The position numbers and the translations under genes are program-made. A DNA stretch of 22,834 nucleotides from a virus. Positions 2,774-21,857 of the stretch are shown piece after piece. Location: positions 1 through 22,834 of the IMG/VR virus record IMGVR_UViG_3300027971_000237; one strand, 5' to 3'. Each line of letters begins with the position of its first letter. The first letter of the stretch is position 1. Under the pieces are notes generated by a model. That model saw only the letters and a list, made by a program, of their open reading frames with translations, was not told the origin of the DNA and made no database searches.

Positions 2774-3502
2774 TTATTTCACCGGAACCCTAGCTTGCCC
2801 GCTACGGTAGGCATCTTGACGCTCAAGGCCATCACCCAACCGTTTAGCCAGCATGAGTGCTTCTTGATACTTCCCGTTGTAGTTGGCAAGGATATCTGCT
2901 TCAGCCTTCTGGAACGTGCAAGCTTCAACCATTGCACCGTAGAGCAAGACTGAATCAATGTTATCCCCCAGCCAAGTCTGACCACCAGATACCGTTGTAA
3001 TGCTCTCAGGATAATAGTAGTAATGAAGTTCTATGTTGTAGGCTGCATCAGGGGTCGGCCCCAAAAGGAACGACAATTCCGCAGTTGGCACGGGGGGAGT
3101 TGCGTTCGTAGTAGTAGGGCCAAACAAAGCGTAATAAGCCGGGGTGCCCGTATCAGTTGGAGTCGGAAAGGATTCACGGATAAAGTTCACATCCTTGTTA
3201 AGAAGGTATGAATACGCGCCAGTGGTAAGGTCTATCACCGCCATCGAATACGAAGCCAAAAAGTCCGAAGGGCAGGACAGATACCTATTGCTCGTGGTAG
3301 CAAAGCCAGTCACGTTCTTACGCAACGAAGGAAACTGAACAGAGTTGTATATACGCTGTTCAGCTTGGGTGATGAACGTGTTAATCTGCTCTACGCTGGT
3401 AAGGGTAGTCGCGGTTGTTCCATCGGTACCATAGAAAATAGTATCGGGGAAGTCGGACTCAAGGTAACCCTTGATCGTTAGAAACAGCGTAGAGTAGTTC
3501 AT
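2774..3502 (-). CDS. Head-tail adaptor-like protein
   Basis: A 242-aa protein. The N-terminal half is helical: YSTLFLTIKGYLESDFPDTI, then a V-E-Q-I-N-T-F-I-T-Q-A-E-Q-R-I-Y helix (about residues 37-52). Next comes a Pro-rich central insertion with a beta hairpin (NIELHYYYYPESITTV), and then a helical C-terminus (LLYGAMVEACTFQKAEADIL...KYQEALMLAKRLGDG). This layout matches the SU10-type adaptor and T7 gp11-like gatekeeper proteins, which form a ring between portal and tail (family knowledge). It lies in the same operon as portal and capsid, before the fibre genes. Adaptor versus tail-tubular protein cannot be settled by eye. Confidence 0.6.
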   Translation of the reverse strand: MNYSTLFLTIKGYLESDFPDTIFYGTDGTTATTLTSVEQINTFITQAEQRIYNSVQFPSLRKNVTGFATTSNRYLSCPSDFLASYSMAVIDLTTGAYSYLLNKDVNFIRESFPTPTDTGTPAYYALFGPTTTNATPPVPTAELSFLLGPTPDAAYNIELHYYYYPESITTVSGGQTWLGDNIDSVLLYGAMVEACTFQKAEADILANYNGKYQEALMLAKRLGDGLERQDAYRSGQARVPVK

Positions 3503-4293: not shown

Positions 4294-5213
4294 TACATTA
4301 CCATCATGTCTCTAGGAACAAACCTAACAGGTGCTTTTTCCCGGTCTTCCGTTGACGCCATCTCAAACTGCTCTTGATACTCCGCCTTAAGCATCTGTAT
4401 TCTTGCTTCGGCTCCGGGTATCTTCATGGACAAGTAGAATGCCAGCCCGGCCACCATACAGGGCAGAAACCTAAACGGAATATCCTCTCCGTTTACACCG
4501 TTTCCCGCATCCTGCATCCGGCGAAGCCTCCAATACACATACGTATAGGTTTGGCTGCTGTCAGGAGTGGGCCATACGTTAATTGCTGGTAAGCTGACTA
4601 CATAGATAGCCGTAGCCGTTGTATGCGCGGCAGCAGTGGTATTAGCCTGTCCACGCACACAATTCTGTATGGTTGTGCTGGTTGTGCCGCTGTAATAGAT
4701 GATTTCTGAGTCAATCTTGATATATCCAGCACTTGCCAGACCTACCGTAGTACTCAGAGTAATCGTTGTGTCAGTGGCAGTAAGAGTCTCATTTAGCGTA
4801 ACTGTTGTAGGGGCTGTAGTCCCTGACTGCCGGTTAATCCAAACCTGAATAGGTCTTCCTGTAGCGTTCTTATTTGGAATGGTTGAATAGGTAGATTCGC
4901 TAATGCGACTAATATTGACATCAATTTGGTTGCTATCTGCGCCAGTGCGGATAACACTATCCAGCAAGTCTATTGTGTCTGTGGGAAGGGCGTAGGTGCT
5001 TTGCCCGGTAGCCAAGACAATCTGCCCCTGCTCCACAGTCCACATATTCAACCCACGGTTCGCCCACTCCAAAGTAAGCAAGTTCAAGCTTCTGCGGGCG
5101 GTACGCATATCGTAGCCCGAACGAAGCTCTTGCCCACAACGCTCAAAAGCCTCTTCTATGAGGTTATTGAGGTCTAGGTTGAACGCAACAGTGCCTGTAG
5201 TGTTATAGGCCAT
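4293..5213 (-). CDS. Head-tail connector / adaptor-like protein
   Basis: A 306-aa protein from ATG 5213-5211 (MAYNTTGTV). A TTG four codons upstream (5225) is an alternative start. The N-terminus has a helical core (LIEEAFERCGQELRSGYDM, then RRSLNLLTLEWANRGLNMW) and the phrase YALPTDTIDLLD. A beta-rich insertion lies at about residues 125-205, and a helical C-terminus follows (PFRFLPCMVAGLAFYLSMKI). It resembles podovirus connector proteins that follow the portal (family knowledge). With the 242-aa gene at 2774-3502, this phage may have two successive adaptor-ring proteins. It overlaps the small 33-aa frame at its 5' end. Confidence 0.65.
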   Translation of the reverse strand: MAYNTTGTVAFNLDLNNLIEEAFERCGQELRSGYDMRTARRSLNLLTLEWANRGLNMWTVEQGQIVLATGQSTYALPTDTIDLLDSVIRTGADSNQIDVNISRISESTYSTIPNKNATGRPIQVWINRQSGTTAPTTVTLNETLTATDTTITLSTTVGLASAGYIKIDSEIIYYSGTTSTTIQNCVRGQANTTAAAHTTATAIYVVSLPAINVWPTPDSSQTYTYVYWRLRRMQDAGNGVNGEDIPFRFLPCMVAGLAFYLSMKIPGAEARIQMLKAEYQEQFEMASTEDREKAPVRFVPRDMMVM

Positions 5214-17413: not shown

Positions 17414-18082
17414 CTACGGGTCACGCTGCACGGGGGTGGTGGGGGGCGGGTGGGGGTCAGCGGCGCTGTTTACACGAAGGCTGCCAACCTCTGCGGAGGC
17501 ACCAGCTCCCCCTTCTGAATCAGTGGCATCGTTTAAACAGTCCCCATCGATCACCCTTCCTTGAATGGTTGCCAGCATCGCCTCAATCTGCTGCCTGATT
17601 GCGTCAGCACCTCCGACGATTGCAACCTCCTGCCTGTCTACGAACATCCCAGCGGTTTTACCAAGGGCTATGAGGGACGCCACTCTTGCGCTGTCTCCAC
17701 CTTCTGTTGACTCCACCACCAGCCGGTCTAATACATAGTCACGACGTTGTGCTGCACTCATTAGGCTTCCCCTGATTGCCGCCTCAGTTGCATGTTGAAT
17801 GGCAACCTTGACTGCTGGTGACTTGTATTCCAGTTCGTGGCCTGACTTCGATGCGTTGCTGACTTGGGGCATGTGTTTCTCCCATGATTGTTTGGGTGTA
17901 TCACCTGCGGCTCTGCTCATTACATATGCACGATGCCGGGGCTGCACTCTCTTGAGTGAGTCACCTAGTGTTCTTGCTTCCTGCTGTATTACTTGTCTTT
18001 GTATCTTAGATGCCGCCGCGCTTCGCGCAAGCCCTGCACTGACGGGCTTCGATGCGGTCTTCGTGCGGTCTTCGTCATTCAT
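17414..18082 (-). CDS. Terminase small subunit-like protein
   Basis: A 222-aa protein from ATG 18082-18080. The N-terminus is basic and Ala-rich. Residues about 45-80 include HRAYVMSRAAGDTPKQSWEK, resembling the recognition part of small terminases. A central AVKVAIQHATEAAIRG helix follows, then an oligomerisation-like end SARVASLIALGKTAGMFVDR (about 131-150). The C-terminal 40 residues are acidic, then Pro-rich (DPHPPPTTP), encoded by a G-quadruplex-forming DNA tract on the opposite strand. First gene after the promoter and two genes before TerL, as expected of TerS. No strong sequence match can be claimed by eye. Confidence 0.65.
   Translation of the reverse strand: MNDEDRTKTASKPVSAGLARSAAASKIQRQVIQQEARTLGDSLKRVQPRHRAYVMSRAAGDTPKQSWEKHMPQVSNASKSGHELEYKSPAVKVAIQHATEAAIRGSLMSAAQRRDYVLDRLVVESTEGGDSARVASLIALGKTAGMFVDRQEVAIVGGADAIRQQIEAMLATIQGRVIDGDCLNDATDSEGGAGASAEVGSLRVNSAADPHPPPTTPVQRDP
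17432..17456 (+). other. G-quadruplex-forming tract
   Basis: On the plus strand four G runs (GGGGG, GGGGGG, GGG, GGGGG) are separated by loops TGGT, C and T. This meets the usual G4 rule and the short loops favour stability. It lies within the Pro-rich 3' end of the TerS-like gene, on its template strand. Further G runs occur at 17322-17333 and about 17385-17391, making this a G/C-polarised zone. Confidence 0.55.
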
Positions 18083-18096
18083 GCCCCGGAGTCTAT

Positions 18097-18104
18097 GTGT
18101 AAAC
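18097..18104 (-). promoter_or_regulatory. Operator-like motif copy in TerS 5' leader
   Basis: Plus strand GTGTAAAC, i.e. GTTTACAC on the minus strand, 15 bp upstream of the TerS start codon. It faces the copy at 18187-18194 in inverted orientation across the leftward promoter. A regulatory role is inferred from that placement. Confidence 0.4.
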
Positions 18105-18153
18105 GCAGCTTAAAACAATTATTTTCACCGTTATTCCTTAACTACTACAACTA

Positions 18154-18182
18154 CTTACAATTTAGTTTACTATGACTGTCAA
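18154..18182 (-). promoter_or_regulatory. Sigma70-type promoter for the leftward morphogenesis operon
   Basis: Read leftward: -35 TTGACA (18182-18177, perfect), a 17-bp spacer, and -10 TGTAAG (18159-18154, 4/6). Transcription would start near 18147, leaving a leader of about 65 nt before TerS. The region is AT-rich and contains no other match of this quality. No phage-specific sigma gene is visible, so host RNA polymerase is assumed. Confidence 0.6.
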
Positions 18183-18186
18183 CCAT

Positions 18187-18194
18187 GTTTACAC
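18187..18194 (+). promoter_or_regulatory. Operator-like GTTTACAC copy upstream of the -35
   Basis: GTTTACAC begins 4 bp outside the -35 box of the leftward promoter. It belongs to the window-wide GTTTAMAC family (see the dispersed-repeat entry). With the copy at 18097-18104 it forms an inverted pair about 90 bp apart, a layout typical of activator or repressor sites. Confidence 0.4.
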
Positions 18195-18348
18195 GGCGTC
18201 GTTAATGGATGGGTAGTTGATTGAGTTTGTGTGTGTGTGGAAGCGTGGCGTTAACCAAGTAAGGTTCGGAGTTTTGGTTGCCACCGGTGCCTGATCGCCG
18301 TGAGTGTCAGGGAAGCAGGGAGGCGGGTTCACTACCCCCAAGCCTGCA

Positions 18349-18376
18349 TTGATCTGGTGCGAAAGCATCACATAAA
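18349..18376 (+). promoter_or_regulatory. Weak candidate rightward promoter
   Basis: TTGATC (18349-18354), a 16-bp spacer, and CATAAA (18371-18376): four of six matches in each box. It is the best candidate I find upstream of the rightward operon, but such matches occur by chance. Confidence 0.2.
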
Positions 18377-18496
18377 TCCTCAGTAAGCAGCTAACAAACA
18401 GTTACTTAGAGCGATCATCGCGGCGTAGGCGTCGTGGTGAGCGGGAACGAAGGCGAACGGTGCCTGACTCCCCTGCTGCTAGTAACGTGCCCTTTT

Positions 18497-18520
18497 GCCG
18501 CGCAGTCTGTAAGACGCGGC
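18497..18520. other. Strong bulged hairpin
   Basis: GCCGC pairs with GCGGC, and inside it GTCT pairs with AGAC around a GTA loop, with a 3-nt bulge (GCA) on the left arm. The total is nine base pairs. It is preceded, not followed, by a T run on the plus strand, so it is not a terminator in either direction. It may be part of a structured leader or a replication element. Confidence 0.45.
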
Positions 18521-18571
18521 GTGAGCGGGGCGCTGCATGAACAAGGTGTGAGCCTAAATACCAGATCAGGG

Positions 18572-18589
18572 CACTCCCATCAGGGAGTG
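18572..18589. other. Perfect 7-bp hairpin
   Basis: CACTCCC (18572-18578), loop ATCA, GGGAGTG (18583-18589). Its 3' arm shares two bases with the left arm of the 19-bp inverted repeat starting at 18588, so the two helices would stack or compete at the junction. Confidence 0.45.
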
Positions 18590-18737
18590 ACTCTCAGAGC
18601 GCATTCTTGAAATCTTGGTGAAAAAATGGGTAGGTTGGCCTCTCCCCGGTTACACGGCAAACGACCCCGTGACCTGACCGCCATGCGTTTATCAAGGTGC
18701 ATTGTTATCCCAAGCAGGGAATGCGTTCTGAGAGTCA
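18588..18737 (+). promoter_or_regulatory. Structured 5' leader closed by a 19-bp inverted repeat
   Basis: The left arm 18588-18606 (TGACTCTCAGAGCGCATTC) pairs with the right arm 18719-18737 across 112 nt. The single non-Watson-Crick position is G18599 with T18726, which is a G-U pair in plus-strand RNA but would be C-A in minus-strand RNA, so all 19 pairs form only in the rightward transcript. Inside is a smaller hairpin, CACGG with CCGTG (18653-18657, 18667-18671), extended by GGT/ACC. The helix ends 6 nt before the GGAGG (18743-18747) of the first rightward gene. A cis-regulatory RNA is inferred. Confidence 0.5.
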
Positions 18738-18751
18738 ACAACGGAGGCGGC

Positions 18752-18937
18752 ATGAACATCACTATCGTGGCGAAATCGAACTACGGGACGCAAGCGTTCT
18801 ACCCGGTCTGCGACAACGCAAAGTTGTTCGCGGAGATTGCTGGCACAACAACCCTGACGCCGCGCACCCTGCGTAGCGTCAAGGCGCTTGGTATCAACAT
18901 AATCATTAATTCTCAGGAGGTTAGCTATGAATTTTAA
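18752..18937 (+). CDS. 61-aa conserved phage protein
   Basis: ATG 18752 follows GGAGG by 4 nt. The same frame opens further upstream at 18626, but that extension is Arg-rich, lies inside the structured leader and has no SD. The protein begins MNITIVAKSNYGTQAFYPVC and continues AKLFAEIAGTTTLTPRTLRS, then KALGINIII. The phrase TQAFYPVC-D-x-A-K-LFAEIAGT recurs in small proteins of phages and prophages (recalled), where it stands at the start of replication or accessory operons. It may be a small DNA- or protein-binding adaptor. It overlaps the next gene by 11 bases. Confidence 0.6.
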   Translation: MNITIVAKSNYGTQAFYPVCDNAKLFAEIAGTTTLTPRTLRSVKALGINIIINSQEVSYEF

Positions 18938-19541
18938 GACGCGTGAAGAGTGGCTGGAGGCATTGATCAGTAAGCTGTCGCTAAAGTTTGCCGTGCTGGG
19001 TCATCCTATCCCAGCGCATGTCCGCGTGACTTGCGGCTTTACCTCTGGTGGCACACGCCGCAAGGCGGGCAAGAGCCAGACCGGGGAAGTGTGGGACGCA
19101 TCACGGTCAGGCGATGCAGCATACGAAATCATGGTCAGCCCGATCATCGATGACACGAAGTTGGTCGCGGTCAACGTGTGCGATTCGTTGTGCCATGCAG
19201 CATCAGGTGACGTTCGACTGCACAACGCGGCGTTTGAGGTGCTGGCGCGTGGCCTGAAGTTGGAAGGCGCTCTGCCTGATCTGAAGGGCGGCAACGACTT
19301 CGCCGTGTTCATCCAGCCGATTCTGGATGAACTTGGGGCTTATCCGCACTCCCGTTTAAACACAGACACGAGACCTACGCAGACCACGCGCATGATCAAG
19401 TGCGTCTGCCCTACGGGCAAATGTGACGGGACGCTACATAAGCCCGGCACCAAGGCATACGCGGTGCGTATCAGCCAGAAATGGCTGAGTATCTGCGCGC
19501 CGGAATGCCCGGTGCATAACGTCCGACTTGTGGTTGAGTGA
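18927..19541 (+). CDS. SprT-like zinc protein with destroyed HExxH active site
   Basis: A 204-aa protein with AGGAGG 6 nt before its ATG. Its plan follows phage SprT-like proteins: an N-terminal helix (TREEWLEALISKLSLKFAVL), VRVTCGF near 32-38, and a catalytic-like segment at about 83-103. There the family's HELxHA is replaced by D86-S-L-C-H90-A; H99 may correspond to the third ligand. GAYPH (137-141) and a C-terminal zinc ribbon follow (C159, C161, C166, C190, C194, with KW at 185-186). First His and catalytic Glu are both gone, so it is probably not a peptidase. Binding via the ribbon could be its remaining role. Confidence 0.6.
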   Translation: MNFKTREEWLEALISKLSLKFAVLGHPIPAHVRVTCGFTSGGTRRKAGKSQTGEVWDASRSGDAAYEIMVSPIIDDTKLVAVNVCDSLCHAASGDVRLHNAAFEVLARGLKLEGALPDLKGGNDFAVFIQPILDELGAYPHSRLNTDTRPTQTTRMIKCVCPTGKCDGTLHKPGTKAYAVRISQKWLSICAPECPVHNVRLVVE

Positions 19542-19551
19542 AAGGCCAGCC

Positions 19552-19590
19552 CACTGCCCAGCTTGCTGGGTAGTGAGATGTTCTTTTTTT
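19552..19590 (+). terminator. Intrinsic terminator / attenuator before the AAA+ gene
   Basis: A 10-bp stem (19552-19561 with 19566-19575, one G-U pair) with loop CTTG is followed after a few bases by TTCTTTTTTT (19581-19590). It sits between the SprT-like stop and the SD (GGAGG, 19596-19600) of the AAA+ gene. Partial read-through would set the level of the downstream module; otherwise a promoter would be needed, and none is evident. Confidence 0.65.
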
Positions 19591-20936: not shown

Positions 20937-21857
20937 ATGAGAAAAGGCACTGCAATAAAACAGGCTATCAGCACGACGCTGATGAAGACATGGGTAGCGG
21001 CAGGGCGTCAGCCCGTCCAGCTAACCGTGCGCTTCGCTGGCACTGGCGCGTCGATGATGGTCGGCGGGGGCGGCAGCATCCTTGTCAACCTGCCGGATTT
21101 CAAGGATGACCACGCGTATAACGATGCACATGCCGACCGCATTGTGGCGATGGCGCTGCATGAGTTGGGACATGCTTTTTTCACCGATAACGCACGGTGG
21201 ACTGCGGCGGTTGTGTCCTACAATAATTGCCTCACTTTACACCGCTGCATCAATGCTTTTGAGGACGTTCGGATGGAGCGGGCGATCATCAAAAGCGGGT
21301 ATGCAATCGGTGCGGAGAGGTTGTTGACTGTCCTGCTGCGGCACATGGTAGCGGGGTGCGATGCCGACACGTTTAAACGCAAGGAGAACATTGCGTTTGC
21401 GATCTGCGTTGACGGGCGCGGCTACGGTGTCAACGTCTTGCCGCTGGTTGCGCCTGCGTTTCAAGCCATTGTGGCTGAGGGCATTGATCGATGCGCTGCG
21501 CTTGTCACTACTGCGGACGCAATCGACGCGGGCATCTGGCTCTGGAAGAAACTCAAGCCCCTGAAGAATCCCCCGCCGCCGCCTGACGATGGTGAAGAGG
21601 GTGAAGGTGAGAAGGGCGAAGGTGAGGGCGAAGGTGAAGGTGAAGGTGAGGGCGAAGGTGAAGGTGAGGGTGAAGGTGAAGGTGAAGGCGAGGGTGAAGG
21701 TGAAGGTGAGGGTGAAGGTGAAGGCGAGGGTGAGGGTGAGGGTGAAGGTGAGGGCGGCGGGTCAGATCAGATACGGGTCGGTGACCGTGTCCTCTGTCCT
21801 GACGGTAAGGAGGGGGTGGTCACTTCGATCACTAACGGCGTTGCTGAAGTCATCTAG
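20937..21857 (+). CDS. CobT-like N-terminal half: HELGH metallopeptidase domain plus acidic (GE)n linker
   Basis: A 306-aa protein. Residues 1-205 form the globular domain with H75-E-L-G-H79 in MALHELGHAFFTDNARW and a downstream N106-A-F-E-D-V-R-M-E segment that could give the third zinc ligand, as in gluzincin-type enzymes. After LKPLKNPPPPPDDG comes a 23-fold Gly-Glu repeat, then a small basic end VGDRVLCPDGKEGVV like an SH3/KOW barrel (about 280-300). In CobT the acidic linker joins a front domain to a vWA domain; here the vWA is a separate gene. The stop overlaps the SD of that gene (TAGGAGG). Confidence 0.7.
   Translation: MRKGTAIKQAISTTLMKTWVAAGRQPVQLTVRFAGTGASMMVGGGGSILVNLPDFKDDHAYNDAHADRIVAMALHELGHAFFTDNARWTAAVVSYNNCLTLHRCINAFEDVRMERAIIKSGYAIGAERLLTVLLRHMVAGCDADTFKRKENIAFAICVDGRGYGVNVLPLVAPAFQAIVAEGIDRCAALVTTADAIDAGIWLWKKLKPLKNPPPPPDDGEEGEGEKGEGEGEGEGEGEGEGEGEGEGEGEGEGEGEGEGEGEGEGEGEGEGEGGGSDQIRVGDRVLCPDGKEGVVTSITNGVAEVI
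21615..21752 (+). repeat. (GGNGAR)23 hexanucleotide repeat coding for Gly-Glu
   Basis: Twenty-three uninterrupted 6-bp units encode (GE)23; a few imperfect ones precede it. Third positions vary (GGT/GGC, GAA/GAG), so it is not a fresh DNA-slippage product throughout, although unit number could still change. The coding strand is almost purely purine. It forms a long, highly acidic, flexible linker. Confidence 0.9.

Follow-up and report, generated by a model that had tools for sequence, protein, structure and literature searches.

The window analysed here is the whole of a 22,834-base IMG/VR contig (IMGVR_UViG_3300027971_000237) from an uncultured tailed phage. Packaging and head functions (large terminase, portal, head proteins) are encoded leftward, and the position of the ORF at 17414–18082, which matches no family, marks it as the presumed terS. 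The rightward genes, starting at 18752, encode in order a 61-aa protein, a SprT-like protein, an AAA ATPase and a VWA protein, and the two divergent operons are separated by 669 non-coding bases (18083–18751). The cultured large terminases nearest to that of the window are those of Pelagibacter phage HTVC027P and phages 023Pt_psg01 and DSL-LC04, at about 53–56 % identity; cultured TerL relatives (Pelagibacter phages HTVC027P and HTVC023P, 023Pt_psg01, DSL-LC04 and Synechococcus phage MinM2) were rejected as comparison loci, the gene order around terL being different in them. No tRNA or tmRNA was found in the window or in the 11 loci scanned. Farther along the window, a 306-aa protein (20937–21857) carries a long Gly-Glu dipeptide run (GEGEGE...) that is likely to be prone to length variation. 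The features of the non-coding stretch and the operon start are these:

18187–18194, plus strand: GTTTACAC, the counterpart of the GTTTAAAC-type site of relatives and likely promoter/operator region of the leader
18205–18751, plus strand: putative 5′ leader RNA for the rightward operon, its start placed approximately; non-coding, between the divergent operons, with an architecture kept in relatives
18302–18567, plus strand: ultraconserved non-coding body of the leader (2 differences from its closest relative, L013)
18572–18589, plus strand: short hairpin CACTCCC-ATCA-GGGAGTG, 7 bp, directly upstream of the long helix and overlapping it by 2 nt
18588–18606, plus strand: 5′ arm of the end helix (repeat search; covariation)
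18607–18718, plus strand: 112-nt apical extension of the end helix
18653–18672, plus strand: CACGGCAAACGACCCCGTGA, a hairpin with the core CGGCRAAYGACCCCG, kept inside the otherwise diverged apical extension
18719–18737, plus strand: 3′ arm of the end helix (repeat search)
18743–18747, plus strand: Shine–Dalgarno sequence GGAGG of the first gene
18752–18937, plus strand: first gene of the rightward operon, 61 aa, no family
18927–19541, plus strand: SprT-like protein (phrog_6361), the syntenic anchor for finding relatives

The initial annotation had drawn attention to a 19-bp helix enclosing 112 nt just ahead of the rightward operon, and a repeat search recovers the same arms (18588–18606 and 18719–18737), 19 nt each and 95 % complementary, with 112 nt between them. 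Its reading of the sole mismatch, G-U in plus-strand RNA and C-A in RNA of the minus strand, is likewise borne out, as is the existence of a 7-bp hairpin overlapping the helix end (18572–18589, with a 2-base overlap); the distance from the helix to the Shine–Dalgarno sequence, given there as 6 nt, is 5 unpaired bases (18737 to 18743). An arm with three or fewer mismatches occurs at only these two sites in the window, with 0.02 expected by chance. Folding of 18588–18737, a check that had been suggested, gives −61.8 kcal/mol (z −5.0 versus shuffles), and the opposite strand folds less well (z −3.8). Since the arms are absent elsewhere in the window and the fold energy lies 5 SD below that of shuffles, the helix goes beyond chance. 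It is followed by ACAACGGAGG, without the U run of an intrinsic terminator; the combination of G+C stem and U run is thus lacking, and the helix does not appear in the list from the terminator scan.

On both sides, a close match to the window was found in a single contig, IMGVR_UViG_3300011114_000202 (L013). Both helix arms and their flanks are identical in the two genomes (0 of 24 and 0 of 29 differences), and the helix interior is nearly unalignable, with 63 of 102 sites differing. The CACGGCAAACGACCCCGTGA hairpin is still recognizable there by its core CGGCRAAYGACCCCG, though the interior differs at 62 % of sites, and was found in no other fetched locus besides these two. In more distant relatives a loop of 3–5 nt stands in the place of the apical extension (18607–18718); its 112 nt are an elongation of that short loop peculiar to the window's lineage. 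A short G+C hairpin of other letters occupies the position of 18572–18589 in L013, L022, L026, L027 and L028. A longer in-frame ORF from 18626 was considered as the first gene and rejected in favour of 18752–18937; the earlier start is unsupported because L013 begins the same protein at MNITIV with its own Shine–Dalgarno sequence. Between the helix and the 61-aa gene, L013 carries two extra small ORFs (4782–5208), each with a Shine–Dalgarno-like stretch, and we read this region, as a possible interpretation of the sequence, as a gene-cassette exchange site right after the leader. The gene that follows the helix thus differs in L013, so that the helix stays while the first gene changes. The 61-aa gene was also considered as the partner of the leader and rejected: other relatives of the 61-aa protein (L004–L012) are without such a helix upstream, so gene and leader are not linked.

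Another phage (L015/L022), in which no other DNA similarity was found, has the exact 5′ arm as well, and its gene order is as in the window: a terS-like gene, a non-coding stretch, small genes, a SprT-like protein, AAA and VWA. With the SprT-like protein of this phage as query, 58 loci were collected. Their common upstream design is a GTTTAAAC-type site, a non-coding stretch and a final hairpin 14–46 nt before a start codon, nearly always that of the first small gene; the downstream gene varies between phages though the hairpin placement is near-constant. About 40 of the 58 loci have the final hairpin, an upstream module shared among them, or both, and a pattern search with the module gave 14 further contigs, several with the hairpin downstream. 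The RNA family, which belongs to a clade of uncultured tailed phages, is present in about 55 contigs. A loose hairpin motif (at least five further pairs) has 19 matches in 411 kb of these loci, all on the plus strand and ahead of the operon of the SprT-like gene. Beyond them, the region has no DNA similarity to phage and plasmid records, the exact arm is absent from 84,980 bacterial and archaeal species, each represented by one genome, and the leaders of three other groups found no match among 50,697 phage records.

Compensatory changes, which the initial annotation had looked to relatives to provide, are plentiful. Twenty distinct hairpins from the window and related uncultured phages were compared over ten inner pairs, the loop of the window having been cut out. 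Of these cells 95.5 % are paired and 45 are changed on both sides, counts that include mutual relatives and so are not independent events; shuffled controls average 13.0 such cells, with none of 500 reaching 45, and slid controls give 10 or fewer. Within the window's own group the full helix has both-side changes in 7 of its 19 pairs. Many different stem sequences give the same fold. Hardly any change is seen at the apical pairs (C-G, A-U, U-G and U-A), and the lower stem varies freely, the apical U-G being present in 19 of 20 hairpins with the window, which has U-A, as the exception; near-fixed pairs on a changeable stem would fit a recognized apical platform on a supporting one. The nine inner pairs contain 27 G-U cells versus one A-C cell, an excess which indicates that selection acts on the rightward RNA, in agreement with the selection on the rightward transcript originally proposed from one mismatch. 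We have very little doubt that the structure is real and that the RNA is conserved.

The helix appears to be the 3′-terminal hairpin of a non-coding leader of about 300–550 nt, a transcript that we predict from sequence. At its other end the GTTTAAAC-type site stands at the leader start in all 15 cases tested; in 14 relatives the end hairpin follows it at a distance of 265–404 nt, and in five a sigma-70-like promoter (TTGCAT..TATYGT) encloses the site. No site in the window passes a promoter consensus scan, and a transcript start near 18205–18215 is a guess. The body between the two ends (18302–18567) differs from that of L013 at 2 of 266 sites (264/266 identical), versus 25 of 219 (11 %) in the adjoining non-coding DNA and 18–37 % at downstream third codon positions; recent exchange could explain this identity, which is seen in one genome pair, L013 being the only close relative. 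The body of the window's leader alone folds no better than shuffles (z −0.5).

Leaders of the other groups share a module of the form GGCUAGUA..GAACGAGAU..ACCGCUUUGAC–helix–CGAGUGCG, examples of which lie, among others, at 3269–3357 in L033, 2521–2612 in L047 and 2781–2878 in L060, and which has no Rfam match. In its helix all 48 of 48 cells pair and 24 have changed on both sides, where shuffles reach 16 at most, and 95 % of cells remain paired in an enlarged set; these counts were made with the helix in register, a first MAFFT alignment having been out of register there and not used. The strands around it (UGAC / CGAG) could, as read by eye, form a kink-turn. This GGCUAGUA..CGCUUUGAC..CGAGUGCG module was not seen in the leader body of the window, which has its own body instead; the leaders are thus mosaic, sharing their start and their end. 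A motif ACCCACCUACAC..CAGGGG, recurring in the leaders of L032, L051, L058, L060 and L063 and twice per leader in L032 and L063, looks like a further module. A GTCCGGACGATCTCCGGC hairpin occurs twice in the L026 leader (4866-b contig), as if it were an inserted movable spacer, and the leader region of L027 is also listed for it.

Most phages have one copy of the end hairpin, with a range in relatives of one to three. A second, with a different and fully paired stem, precedes the next small gene in L027, and the group of L033, L035 and L041 has another type of end hairpin in two to three copies near the operon start, which in the cases inspected precede small ORFs. A further structured stretch, of three hairpins whose stems covary, was also observed between the SprT-like and AAA genes (L026 3352–3440, L027 4562–4650, L028 3476–3560 and L030 4562–4645).

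How the RNA acts can be argued only tentatively. The reading that we favour, which comes fairly close to an even chance, is a cis-acting leader whose end hairpin would be a protein- or ribosome-facing platform protecting the mRNA. A long structured 5′ leader would be transcribed rightward from a promoter near 18190–18210, divergent from terS, and would act in cis on the operon mRNA. In its end hairpin a near-fixed apical stem with the strands CAUU and AGUG would sit on the freely covarying lower stem, a protein or the ribosome would read this CAUU/AGUG platform, and the hairpin would shield the mRNA body just upstream of the first ribosome-binding site. Action in cis is suggested by the operon-level placement, the indifference to the first gene and the closeness to the first ribosome-binding site, and the repeated copies near small genes favour a role at the mRNA level (protection, or docking of a ribosome or protein) over polymerase loading. 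Shine–Dalgarno accessibility is not systematically raised (p 0.14), which lends no support to a direct effect on translation, and conserved hiding of the ribosome-binding site was not found among the relatives tested. With neither conserved Shine–Dalgarno hiding nor conserved terminators, the evidence goes against switches and, more weakly, against antitermination. Possible, if somewhat doubtful, is a bolder proposal, that of a new, large and modular class of phage RNA in which mosaic 300–550 nt leaders, with interchangeable covarying modules and a CAUU/AGUG end hairpin, would programme a non-structural operon by an undescribed mechanism (an RNA that modifies polymerase or ribosome on its own, for instance, or one that is released to act in trans).

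A cis-acting antitermination RNA, loading onto RNA polymerase after the promoter and giving read-through of the operon like the put RNA of phage HK022, would account for a leader that, like put, follows a promoter and precedes a long operon, for the pair of neighbouring stem-loops in the window's group, which put RNA also has (PMC9378689), and for independence of the first gene. We think it rather unlikely, however: no terminator is conserved downstream, a conserved one having been looked for after the SprT-like gene and not found, the one terminator-like site (19552–19575) compares with 1.7 expected by chance, some phages repeat the end hairpin before the second and third genes, and the leaders are far longer than put. 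The long, module-built body, conserved while the first gene changes, would also suit a trans-acting non-coding RNA cut from the operon transcript, with the end helix as its 3′ end or as a processing site (for example for RNase III). This too is unlikely, given a 3′ end without a terminator, the gene's Shine–Dalgarno sequence following at once in nearly every case, and hairpins of only about 11 bp in many relatives, which is short for RNase III.

The description of the element as riboswitch-like fares worse. A regulatory switch (riboswitch or attenuator) would give the 5′ arm two alternative partners, and AGAGTC, GAGAGAC and GAGAGGC upstream in L022, L026 and L027 could, as read by eye, pair with it, but such a partner occurs in some relatives only and is not evident in the window or in L028. 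Shine–Dalgarno pairing is not systematic, neither sequestration of that sequence nor a terminator is conserved, no riboswitch expression platform (a Shine–Dalgarno sequence hidden and freed, or a terminator) was recognized, and an apical part ranging from 3 to 112 nt is unlike a ligand pocket, all of which makes a switch very unlikely. Least probable of all is a DNA-level element (replication origin, packaging site or operator) in which the inverted repeat acts as DNA: a place between divergent operons beside terS, with GTTTAAAC-type sites nearby, would suit it, but G-U is kept on one strand only (27 G-U versus 1 A-C), the distance to start codons is fixed and the orientation is always with the downstream gene.

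Rfam 15 has no family above its gathering threshold for the leader, the only match being a tRNA in L063 that lies outside it; the idea of a new structured leader element stands to that extent, with the correction that the helix is only one end of a much longer conserved leader. One hand-spotted helix has in this way become a conserved RNA family with strong covariation, absent from Rfam and the phage genome records searched, and the persistence of these long modular leaders ahead of changing first genes suggests that tailed phages have an RNA device for control at the level of the operon.

The ESAS of Cluster K mycobacteriophages are 17-bp imperfect inverted repeats with a variable spacer, located just upstream of translation starts and of unknown function (PMC3203893). 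The end helix is likewise an inverted repeat of similar length in tailed phages, has a spacer that varies and lies shortly before a start codon, but the 13-bp SAS GGGATAGGAGCCC that goes with ESAS was searched for here and is absent, ESAS phages have many copies per genome where the window has one and its relatives one to three, and there is a long conserved leader here, none being described for ESAS. The put RNA of phage HK022, about 70 nt with two stem-loops downstream of an early promoter, has proven antitermination activity (PMC9378689). In general design both are phage RNAs downstream of a promoter (here putative) with adjacent stem-loops (here two hairpins in the window's group), not tied to one gene; the present leaders differ in being 300–550 nt long, in lacking conserved terminators and in having extra hairpin copies inside the operon. 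GOLLD and ROOL are large, elaborate phage-encoded RNAs of unknown function, often near tRNA genes (PMC12286853). The likeness to these is in size only, as large phage RNAs; the leaders do not match their Rfam models and stand instead at the start of a protein operon beside terS.
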